A DNA stretch of 64,000 nt from an uncultured bacterium (GTDB taxonomy: Bacteria > Cyanobacteriota > Vampirovibrionia > Gastranaerophilales > Gastranaerophilaceae). The stretch covers positions 62,001 to 126,000 of the forward strand of contig CASGCE010000035.1 of the NCBI GenBank assembly GCA_949299935.1. Direction: 5' to 3'. The notes under the pieces are model-generated. The model had not been told where the DNA came from. It worked only from the letters and a program-made list of their open reading frames with translations, and did no database searches. Position numbers and translations under genes: made by a program. Positions within the stretch are counted from its first letter, which is position 1. The number at the start of each line of letters is the position of its first letter. Of this stretch, positions 51,577 to 54,582 are shown one piece after another.

Positions 51577-52185
51577 CTATAACCCGCGTGATAAGTTCTT
51601 GATAACCCTTCCGACAATACTTATTTCAACATCACCATCGGGTTTCAATGTTTCAATCGGATATTTTTGGTTGTCCGAAATTATGTCCAATTCACCTGTA
51701 ATTCTTAACCTTAAACGCTTTACAAACCAATCATTATTGATGGTAAGAACAAATATCCCGCCATTGTTAAAGTCCCTGCGGGAAGTGTCTACAAGCAAAA
51801 TATTACCGTCTTCAATTATATTTTCCATACTGTCACCTGATGCCTTGAACAGCTTTAAATCGGAAGGATGAGGAATTTTCCACAGCTCACGTATAAGTTC
51901 CGTACCTATCTTAACCGGAGTAACCTCAGCATCGTCCGGCACAACAGTCCCTTGACCACAAGAAGGATTGATTTTAATATAGTCCAACTCAACACAATCG
52001 GTCAACAGCTCTATTCCGTAATGCTTTTCTATAAGTGCAATTTCACTTTCGCTGAAATCGCTGTCCCTCGCAGCACGCGCCGACATTGCAGCTTTTTTTA
52101 CCTGTAATATTTCACACAAATCAGTCTGCTTTGGTCTAAATCCTATTAAATTTTGTAAAGTACTTAAAAGCTTGTTATACTTCAT
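51577..52185 (-). CDS. CI/LexA-type self-cleaving repressor (peptidase S24)
   Basis: A 202-residue protein. The N-terminal region resembles phage CI helix-turn-helix domains. A Cys76-Gly77 bond (P-S-C-G-Q-G) lies where autocleavage occurs, like the Cys-Gly of UmuD rather than Ala-Gly of LexA. The Ser119 nucleophile lies in G-D-S-M-E and Lys156 in W-F-V-K-R-L, so the dyad is intact and RecA-dependent induction is plausible. ATG 52185 has AAGGAAG 3 bases upstream. It likely represses itself and the divergent early genes. Confidence 0.85.
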   Translation of the reverse strand: MKYNKLLSTLQNLIGFRPKQTDLCEILQVKKAAMSARAARDSDFSESEIALIEKHYGIELLTDCVELDYIKINPSCGQGTVVPDDAEVTPVKIGTELIRELWKIPHPSDLKLFKASGDSMENIIEDGNILLVDTSRRDFNNGGIFVLTINNDWFVKRLRLRITGELDIISDNQKYPIETLKPDGDVEISIVGRVIKNLSRGL

Positions 52186-52219
52186 ATCTTCCTTCAATTA
52201 CATTTATATGTAGAATAAT

Positions 52220-52259
52220 GTCAACTTTAATGTTGACTTTTGTCAACTTTTGTGTTAAA
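52220..52259. promoter_or_regulatory. Putative repressor operators
   Basis: O1 is the exact palindrome GTCAAC-N6-GTTGAC (52220-52237). O2 at 52242-52259 is GTCAAC-N6-GTTAAA, with one perfect and one 4/6 half-site. Centres are 22 bases (two helical turns) apart. Both overlap the divergent promoter elements. Confidence 0.7.
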
Positions 52260-52261
52260 CT
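52233..52261 (+). promoter_or_regulatory. Early promoter of the phage-like genes
   Basis: TTGACT (52233-52238), a 17-base spacer and TAAACT (52256-52261) preceded by TGT. The -35 box is part of operator O1 and O2 lies in the spacer, so repressor binding would block it. A TTGACA on the minus strand (52224-52219) may serve the repressor gene. The 260 bases from here to 52520 show no gene. Confidence 0.7.
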
Positions 52262-52520
52262 GATAGCACGATGTAAATAATTGTATAAATAACTCCGCTA
52301 AACAAACCCGGACACATATTGCTGGTTACCGTTTGAATGAATAAATGCAATTGTATCCGGAAACTTTACGGCAGACTTTTTTTAAAGCCTGAATTCCAAC
52401 ATTATTATAATACAACAAACAAAGTACGCTATCACCTGACTGGATATATTTTTACAAATTATTTACAAACCCACACCTGCAGGGCTTATGCCGATTTTTT
52501 CTTAACATAAGGAGCGAGAT

Positions 52521-52718
52521 ATGATAAAACAGTTACTTAAAAAAATTAACAAAAAGGAAATTCTACGAAAACGACTCATTGAATACTATCAAACGTTAAA
52601 CAATAACGAAGTTAATATCCCGGCTTTTATCCTTGCACAAGAGGATATCCGGCTTATTGAACAAAAAGGTACACTTGATTTTTGGTATAAAAATTTTAAA
52701 AATGGCATCAGAAGATAA
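52521..52718 (+). CDS. Small hypothetical protein, first early gene
   Basis: A 65-residue basic protein, with a K-rich N-terminal helix (L-L-K-K-I-N-K-K-E-I-L-R-K-R) and a short C-terminal part ending W-Y-K-N-F-K-N-G. AAGGAG lies 8 bases before the ATG. It is the first gene after the early promoter. Phage early regions often begin with such small proteins; no family is recognised. Confidence 0.6.
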   Translation: MIKQLLKKINKKEILRKRLIEYYQTLNNNEVNIPAFILAQEDIRLIEQKGTLDFWYKNFKNGIRR

Positions 52719-52884
52719 TTTTCTACGTTTGGACGAGGAGTTTGCTTTGAGCGAAATTAAAAAACGTGTGGCAGACGGAGATTTTTCACATTCGGATATA
52801 GAACTTTTTTTCCAACAAAATTTGATATCCGTTGATGAGTATGAATATTGCGTTGAAATTTTGGAAAGGAGAGAAAATGTCTAA
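52702..52884 (+). CDS. Small acidic hypothetical protein
   Basis: A 60-residue protein (E/D-rich). ATG 52702 overlaps the previous gene by 17 bases and lacks a good ribosome-binding site, so translation may depend on coupling. The frame is open further upstream to 52633, but that reading is unlikely. It ends 8 bases inside the start of the next gene. Function unknown. Confidence 0.5.
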   Translation: MASEDNFLRLDEEFALSEIKKRVADGDFSHSDIELFFQQNLISVDEYEYCVEILERRENV

Positions 52885-53791
52885 AAGACTTACAGATACT
52901 TCCATTTGGAATAAAGATTGGTATTTGGATTTACCTTTGAAAAAAAAACTGTTGCTGAAATATATTTTTGACAACTGCGATTGTGCAGGAGTATACGAGA
53001 TTTCATACAGGACTTTAAAGCACTGTTTCGACGAAGAAATTACAAAAGAAGATTTTAACGACTTAAGACAAATAAGATTTATCAGTGAAAATAAAGTTTT
53101 TATAGAAGACTTCATAGAATTCCAATACGGAGTAACGACAGACAAGCTTGATCCTAAAAAAAGCGTACATAAAGGTATCCTAAGATGTTTAAAAAAACAT
53201 CAACTGTTAGATAACCCTTTTGAAACAGTTAAAGATAAAGATAAGGATAAGTATAAGGATAAGGATAAAGATAAGGATATAGATAAAGTTAAAGATATAA
53301 ATAAAGATATAAATAAAAATATAAATGAAAATGTAAGTAAATATAAAAAAATAAATATAAATTCACCTACAAATGAAAGTTATAATAAGATAAAAAATAC
53401 TATGTTAGATACTTACAAAGAATTATGTCCTCATCTGATAGCCATAAGCGGAGAAGCAAACAGCAAAAGAACGGGAGAAAAAATCCGCCAATATATAAAT
53501 GAAACACAAAACGACATGGAATTGTTTAAAAAACTTTGCACTAAAGCAGACAAGCTTAAAAAAATCGGGACAATAAACATAGATTTTGAAACAATGTTAA
53601 ATTGCAGAATAGGGATTTTAAACGGGAAATATGAGAACAACGAAAAGACGGAAGAAGAAAAAATAAACGAGCGTGCAAAACGAGAACTTATGGCAACCAA
53701 AAAGTTATTAGAAGAATATAAAAATCTCAAATGCGATCCGATGCCGGAAAGTTTCAAAAAATTGGGAGAGAAATTAAGGAGTATGAAATGA
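52877..53791 (+). CDS. Phage replication-organiser-like protein
   Basis: A 304-residue protein. The N-terminal region (about 1-100) has W-N-K-D-W-Y-L-D-L-P-L-K-K-K-L-L-L-K-Y-I-F-D-N-C-D-C-A-G-V-Y, a pattern common in phage-encoded DnaD/replisome-organiser proteins that bind the replication origin. A low-complexity linker of K-D repeats (about 115-140), encoded by tandem GATAAR hexamers, joins a helical C-terminal part. AAGGAG lies 6 bases before the ATG 52877. It overlaps the next gene by four bases. Confidence 0.7.
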   Translation: MSKRLTDTSIWNKDWYLDLPLKKKLLLKYIFDNCDCAGVYEISYRTLKHCFDEEITKEDFNDLRQIRFISENKVFIEDFIEFQYGVTTDKLDPKKSVHKGILRCLKKHQLLDNPFETVKDKDKDKYKDKDKDKDIDKVKDINKDINKNINENVSKYKKININSPTNESYNKIKNTMLDTYKELCPHLIAISGEANSKRTGEKIRQYINETQNDMELFKKLCTKADKLKKIGTINIDFETMLNCRIGILNGKYENNEKTEEEKINERAKRELMATKKLLEEYKNLKCDPMPESFKKLGEKLRSMK

Positions 53792-54243
53792 CAATAACGA
53801 CACAGCAGCTGAGGGATTACACGGAGATAGTAAAGGAATTAGACTTTTTGCTGCGGAAAAAAGAACAAATAAAGGAACGACTAAGCGTGTTAAAGAGTCC
53901 TAATTATAAAGAAATAAAGGTAAAAGAAGGTAATAGAAGCAAAATAAGCGAACAGGAAAATTATGTAATAAAACTGGAAAAAATAAACAAAAAAATAGAT
54001 GAATACAAAACATGGCTTATACCGGAACACGCAAAAATAAAAGAGGAAATAGCACGGATAAAGAAATGGCAGTACAGAAATATTTTGGTATACAGGTATC
54101 TGGAAAAATGGAAATGGTCTGAAATAATCCAAGAATTTTTTGAATTTGAAGACGACTATGAAGAAGAAAAAGATTTCAAGTACAGAGAAAGGATTATGTA
54201 CTGGCATCGCAAAGCGCTCACAGAGCTGTCCGAAGGGAAATAA
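53788..54243 (+). CDS. RinA/ArpU-like phage regulator
   Basis: A 151-residue protein. A coiled N-terminal half is followed by R-Y-L-E-K-W-K-W-S-E-I-I-Q-E-F-F and a C-terminal Y-R-E-R-I-M-Y-W-H-R-K-A-L helix. This resembles the sigma-region-4-like fold of late-gene activators in Gram-positive phages (RinA, ArpU). The ATG overlaps the previous stop by four bases and AAGGAG lies 6 bases upstream. Its target is unknown. Confidence 0.65.
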   Translation: MTITTQQLRDYTEIVKELDFLLRKKEQIKERLSVLKSPNYKEIKVKEGNRSKISEQENYVIKLEKINKKIDEYKTWLIPEHAKIKEEIARIKKWQYRNILVYRYLEKWKWSEIIQEFFEFEDDYEEEKDFKYRERIMYWHRKALTELSEGK

Positions 54244-54354
54244 ATTCAGCCAAAGATAATATGAACAAATGTAACATACAACAATCAAAAAAAAGCAATT
54301 TTGAAGCGACAAATTTCTTTATATAAATATACAGGTTGGAAAGAGGACAACACA

Positions 54355-54558
54355 ATGAAAGAACAGGAATTAAATACAATGATGTCAGTAGTGTCAGATC
54401 CAATATCAAACGTCTACAAAATTGAGACCAGAAAGGATTTGGAGGAAATACAGCGCATCATAAGAATTTTCAATATAGCGCAGGAGCAGCATAATAAGCA
54501 TACATTACTTTCAGTGAAGAATTTAGCGACATTCAGATTAGTATTAAGCAATAATTAG
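54355..54558 (+). CDS. Small hypothetical protein, last gene of the phage-like module
   Basis: A 67-residue helical protein with an acidic beginning and R-K-D-L-E-E-I-Q-R-I-I-R-I-F in the middle. GAGGA lies 7 bases before the ATG 54355; an upstream in-frame TTG at 54301 lacks a site. It is separated from the RinA-like gene by 111 bases and followed by a terminator. Function unknown. Confidence 0.55.
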   Translation: MKEQELNTMMSVVSDPISNVYKIETRKDLEEIQRIIRIFNIAQEQHNKHTLLSVKNLATFRLVLSNN

Positions 54559-54582
54559 GAAATAGAATAAAGAGGAATGTGG

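Follow-up and report, generated by a model that had tools for sequence, protein, structure and literature searches.

We analysed a 64,000-nucleotide stretch of DNA (the window; C35:62001-126000 of a 1.68 Mb assembly that is 97% complete), in which a compact phage-like module lies between mazG and dgkA. A CI-type repressor diverges here from a short early operon. The named relatives with the same module are Candidatus Gastranaerophilales MAGs. The features of the locus, in window coordinates, are as follows.

51577..52185, minus strand: CI-type S24 repressor, 202 aa (Pfam Peptidase_S24, 1.2e-17; PHROG 4 repressor, 7e-27)
52220-52237, no strand: predicted CI operator 1, GTCAACN6GTTGAC (0.05 matches expected by chance)
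about 52231-52247, no strand: predicted CI operator 2, GTTGACN4GTCAAC, TGTTGACTTTTGTCAAC (0.06 matches expected by chance)
52233..52261, plus strand: early promoter, TTGACT - 17 bp - TAAACT (direct sequence reading; overlapped by the operators)
52393..52453, plus strand: conserved leader block, ATTCCAACATTATTATAATACAACAAA...GCTATCACCTGACTGGATATATT (nine-species alignment)
52521..52718, plus strand: g1, 65 aa, first early gene (nine species, 57-80% identity to the window copy)
52702..52884, plus strand: g2, 60 aa, fastest-evolving early gene (kept in nine species)
52877..53791, plus strand: Rep-like protein, 304 aa (AlphaFold model and viral fold hits)
53230..53362, no strand: 6-12 bp tandem repeats in the rep linker (Tandem Repeats Finder)
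53788..54243, plus strand: ArpU-like late-activator candidate, 151 aa, last module gene (PHROG 36, 1.1e-8)
54355..54558, plus strand: g5, 67 aa, host gene outside the module (in the module-less mazG-dgkA interval of six relatives)

An earlier reading, made from the sequence alone, had called the repressor CI/LexA-type, with a Ser119/Lys156 dyad and a Cys76-Gly77 cleavage bond. The Pfam and PHROG matches agree with this call, and all of these residues are identical in 14 of 14 aligned relatives. With its Ser/Lys dyad and cleavable bond, CI has the makings of an autocleaving S24 (CI/LexA) repressor, and self-cleavage is predicted. The two GTCAAC/GTTGAC operators that the same reading had placed over an early promoter are likewise upheld, by their low chance expectations and by conservation: they overlap each other (52220..52247) in a block conserved in nine species, and the -35 element, the spacing and the -10 element are all kept in the nine-species alignment.

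The early genes are kept in all nine species whose genomes bear the module. A homologue of g1 occurs in the phage contig L243 (38% identity), and g2 has only a weak YqgQ-like resemblance, below the cut-off. The AlphaFold model of the Rep-like protein, of moderate quality, has a winged-helix N-terminal part, a disordered Lys-Asp linker and a helical C-terminal part. Against a viral fold library this model gave DnaD-like and replisome-organiser matches (E 5e-4 to 7e-3); a PDB fold search yielded nothing useful and sequence-family searches returned no match. The description of this protein as replication-organiser-like therefore stands by fold, at the strength of such a model, and not by sequence family. 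By analogy with lambda O, the repeats in the linker could, speculatively, be a replication origin. The ArpU-like part of the earlier RinA/ArpU-like call is confirmed by the PHROG 36 match; a match to Pfam DUF1492 (1.3e-3) falls below the Pfam cut-off. A 61% identical copy of this protein lies within a prophage-like array of G016.

Extent and distribution of the module

The genus was sampled with 16 genomes (Candidatus Gastranaerophilales; the window's genome is G000), of which nine have the module: G000, G001, G002, G004, G009, G010, G011, G012 and G015. A comparison of mazG-dgkA intervals between strains had been proposed, and in six genus members this interval is 'empty' of the module and holds g5 with the same leader and terminator. 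Since g5 is present in these module-free intervals (L121-L126), it was ruled out as a phage gene, and the insert spans 51577 to about 54243. Four of the five small early genes described previously thus belong to the module, while the fifth (54355-54558) is host DNA. The g5 product, a 67-aa protein with no family match, lies between mazG and dgkA genus-wide and has a strongly conserved leader.

The position of the module varies. It lies in the mazG neighbourhood in five genomes: between mazG and g5 in G000, G002 and G012, beside mazG in G009, and together with g5 between an aminotransferase and a HEAT-repeat gene in G011. In G015, G004 and G001 it lies beside rpoD or a pilin-like gene, in the recN-rpoD-pilin neighbourhood. 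In G010 it occupies a lone 3,183-bp contig; a circular form of this contig was considered and rejected, there being no terminal overlap. The module is thus found in nine of 16 species at three or four positions, and not at one locus in all relatives without transfer, the pattern that would have refuted the earlier reading. In the module tree, G001, G004 and G015 (the pilin class) split off from all others with support of 99-100, consistent with one relocation. Copies of an approximately 80-bp dispersed repeat, GAGGCTGGAGGGCTTTGCGAAGGCAAAGACCGCAACGCCGTTTA, lie next to the module in G002, G012 and G010 (left of CI in L103, on the dgkA side in L102, at the left end in L035) and could have mediated such a relocation.

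An intact late operon lies beside recN

A large terminase subunit (TerL) gene was first seen near the module in the relative G015 and was then searched for across 146 genomes. In the window's genome, TerL was found at C35:36117-37343, 76 kb upstream of the module on the same contig. It is part of a late operon of about 20 kb on the minus strand (C35:17994-37743), outside the window, which starts at C35:62001. The earlier statement that structural genes are absent is therefore correct inside the window and wrong for the contig. The operon is intact and of contractile-phage type, with terminase, portal, capsid, sheath, baseplate and endolysin genes. Specifically, it encodes TerS (PHROG 3064, 9e-19), TerL (PHROG 2, 7e-36), portal (PHROG 533, 2e-25, and SPP1 portal, 1e-18, for the G002 copy tested), a scaffold-like protein, capsid (PHROG 10, 5e-57), adaptor, sheath, tube, baseplate J, hub, a gp25-like protein, fibre and fibre assembly (these two names assigned by position) and endolysin (PHROG 894, 8e-42). 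The late genes are full length in nine of nine module genomes. The sole interruption is a plus-strand metallophosphoesterase gene (L161:16840-17583; C35:31840-32583), found at the same position in all nine genomes and in G007. The assemblies break next to the baseplate and fibre genes (contig ends in L165, L166, L167 and L169), and four of the ends consist of tandem copies of 60-80 bp units, which suggests a fibre gene of variable repeat number.

The TerS gene starts about 400 bp from recN and is transcribed away from it. The junction contains a conserved block, GTATATTAGCATATTATCC, and, upstream of TerS in all nine genomes, three to eight copies of a GT[GT]TNA repeat at an exact spacing of 10 bp (one 20-bp gap occurs in G015). 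Among 279 loci compared, the array was seen at the TerS-recN junction only; within the window's genome it matched that junction and one other site, on C11. Since 10 bp is one helix turn, the spacing suggests an oligomeric binder, which may be the ArpU-like activator or a TerS ring at a pac site. A motif apparently shared by the early and late regions, CACCNNNNTGG, was spotted by eye and is too weak to claim. A conserved 44-aa, ribbon-helix-helix-like ORF also lies between TerS and recN in nine of nine genomes (e.g. L162:2744-3200), and a similar small ORF adjoins CI in G054 (L109).

The two halves occur together

TerL and capsid genes are present in single copy in exactly the nine module genomes of the genus. 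G003, G005, G006, G013 and G014 have neither module nor TerL or capsid; G007 has diverged TerL and capsid, G008 a diverged TerL, and both a diverged Rep. With G007 and G008 left out, a co-occurrence of nine of nine against none of five has a chance of 1 in 2002 if relatedness is ignored. The sheath gene is distributed in the same way save for one missing match in G002, whose late contig terminates in tandem repeats. Each of the nine genomes has the late operon beside recN, with TerS-recN synteny; in module-free members recN has the pilin-like gene and rpoD as neighbours, and no phage gene intervenes. A single inversion was considered as the cause of the split between the halves and discarded, as gene orientations do not fit. 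Because both loci are flanked by host genes on long contigs of several assemblies, the module is not a prophage end truncated by assembly.

The absence of an integrase, reported earlier for the module, was borne out at both loci: none was found near the module or the late operon in the window's genome, where integrase-family matches occur only on C1, C7 and C27. Two of these are short frames of about 185 aa (C7:4402-4857 and C27:13405-13872; L242, L241).

The sequence-only reading had offered a satellite as one option, that is, a unit borrowing the particles of a helper phage. The module is indeed compact and under CI control; it contains a Rep-like gene and a candidate late activator, and its own locus has no virion genes. 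PICI-type satellites, however, have their own integrase and excision functions and draw virion genes from another phage. Here no integrase frame lies at the locus, the matching late genes are always at a fixed locus of the same genome, one-to-one across the genus, and the layout is that of a reduced phage early region. With the integrase missing and the late operon resident, we reject the satellite option as hardly credible.

Selection and descent

Purifying selection is strong on both halves. In the measurable pairs, dN/dS was 0.02-0.08 in capsid, portal and TerL, 0.06-0.07 in CI, 0.05-0.07 in ArpU, 0.09-0.11 in Rep and 0.15-0.16 in g2; the values are rough, with synonymous sites near saturation in many pairs. 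Such values, together with intact frames in nine species, agree with the earlier view of a maintained unit and not only decay, and they fit the suggestion that the unit is domesticated. Slow decay of one old prophage into two remnants would account for the lack of an integrase, the reduced early region and the loss of everything in five relatives. Against this, module and late frames have stayed open in nine species although synonymous sites are near saturation, dN/dS is low, and the halves are kept or lost together, so that we regard decay as very unlikely.

TerL distances follow RecN distances (r = 0.84, 21 genomes), and the TerLs of the nine genomes group in a single clade that excludes all viral relatives. 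The case that the TerL tree by itself makes for vertical descent across the family is weakened, as viral TerLs lie among the copies of other genera. In those genera, related late genes are found in shuffled order (L175 and L176 in G055, L177 in G084, L178 in G020), and in G055 repeated exported-looking proteins are inserted between them. The late genes reject two clades of a host tree that was built from two proteins, one of them RecN, encoded next to the late operon. Moreover, module genes, and at times late genes too, are more diverged at synonymous sites than host genes in several close pairs; for G009 and G011 the values are 0.31 for host, 0.54 for late and 0.66 for module genes. The clade rejections and the excess divergence point to allele exchange between species and a descent that is not strictly vertical, and strict domestication is weakened accordingly. 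The positions are stable while alleles have probably been exchanged.

Relation to phages

Two IMG/VR contigs, L243 and L244, have TerLs 75% identical to the resident copy and look like ordinary phages. L243 carries an early operon (ArpU, RusA-like, exonuclease-like and RecT-like genes, the last three named from reading their sequences), followed by CI, TerS, TerL and portal. Dulem virus 31 (PP511318), a circular genome of 35.8 kb, shares this layout, and its CI is 61% identical. Its record (L267, PP511318.1) is filed under Microviridae despite the 35.8-kb genome and contractile tail, and that taxonomy looks wrong. Early operon, CI and late operon have the same relative order and orientation in these phages and in the resident element. 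The phages are contiguous, whereas the resident halves are separated; their early region is larger, with the RecT-like, exonuclease and RusA-like genes that the module lacks, and L244, L247 and Dulem virus 31 have a minor head gene after portal that is absent from the resident late operon. Judged by gene content, the module is such an early region in stripped-down form.

The existence of these relatives, and a module divergence above that of the host in close pairs, would suit a phage lineage that is still mobile and whose halves are exchanged between species by homologous recombination. We consider this unlikely: no integrase is nearby, host genes spanning tens of kilobases lie between the halves in most species, and the position beside recN is fixed in nine species.

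A proposed dispersed, domesticated prophage

On balance we think it probable that a contractile-tailed temperate phage took up residence in this Gastranaerophilales genus and that the module is its early half, carrying the regulation; a DNA-packaging particle would be the likeliest product. The element would be a dispersed, domesticated prophage, perhaps moving DNA between cells. In the proposed mechanism, CI would repress the early promoter until stress led to CI self-cleavage and released it. The early operon would then supply Rep and the ArpU-like activator, the latter may switch on the distant TerS promoter in trans, and the late operon would yield particles and then lysis. With no integrase nearby and host genes between the halves, the element cannot leave as one piece, and packaging of chromosomal DNA, as by a gene transfer agent or PBSX, is therefore the most plausible outcome. 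Besides the signs of allele exchange, this explanation has against it that gene transfer agents do not usually keep a Rep and that TerLs 75% identical occur in real phages.

A more specific version can be put forward as doubtful. Speculatively, a putative origin in the rep linker might drive in-place amplification around the module, resembling Bartonella run-off replication (PMC2697382). A single CI switch would then release both a trans activator and a Rep that amplifies the surrounding chromosome, enriching a chosen region in the particles of a contractile, dispersed gene transfer agent of gut Cyanobacteriota relatives; this coupling would be BaGTA-like and of independent origin.

A killing particle of PBSX type would have the same anatomy and package DNA as well, its benefit being the killing of relatives and not gene transfer. 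The contractile tail, baseplate and endolysin genes suit it, and tandem repeats within the fibre gene could be a sign of shifting targets. The two functions are not separable by sequence alone, and we give the killing particle a real if minority chance. A headless particle is unlikely, given the purifying selection on terminase, portal and capsid.

These observations have wider consequences. With intact copies at fixed loci in nine species and natural empty sites in their relatives, domestication and gene flow could be tested on metagenomes. Window-sized scans, moreover, can mislabel a dispersed element as defective.

Comparison with known systems

Gene transfer agents (GTAs) are viriforms, e.g. 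RcGTA, BaGTA and VSH-1; they have caudoviricete-derived particle genes, are fully endogenised, often at several loci, are inherited mostly vertically and co-diversify with the host, package mostly random host DNA, cannot package their whole own genome and deliver DNA to other cells (PMC9662315). The late operon provides caudoviricete-derived particle genes, and the element is endogenised at two loci 76 kb apart, which are separate in relatives too, with no integrase nearby. As for inheritance, distances correlate with those of the host and the position is fixed, yet host clades are rejected and alleles look exchanged. As two of the published features are found and three need particles, we regard the element as a candidate whose function may be that of a gene transfer agent or of PBSX, and not as an established GTA. 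The literature searched contained no report of either a gene transfer agent or a domesticated phage from Gastranaerophilales/Melainabacteria. If DNA is packaged, such agents would have arisen independently in this little-studied group of the gut, here as one whose tail is contractile and which has kept a lysogeny-type switch.

The element resembles RcGTA, BaGTA and VSH-1 in being caudoviricete-derived and endogenised at more than one locus and in the lack of a nearby integrase, and it may also share their broad co-divergence with the host. It differs from them in its contractile tail, its CI-type switch and its Rep-like gene, and its particles and their cargo are predicted. PBSX of Bacillus subtilis is a resident, contractile, repressor-controlled phage-like element encoded in one contiguous cluster. 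The present element shares these traits except that its two halves are dispersed, and PBSX packages DNA according to work cited within PMC2697382. BaGTA keeps a packaging cluster and a phage-derived run-off replication function in the same genome (PMC2697382), as the element appears to do; by contrast, replication is here predicted from a moderate fold model, control would lie with a single CI switch, and the bacterial phylum is different. FpGTA of Faecalibacterium, podovirus-like, has two operons about 125 kb apart, the second structural and lytic (PMC12946183). Both are elements of gut bacteria with two distant loci (about 125 kb and 76 kb apart), whereas the element described here has a regulatory second locus and a contractile tail.
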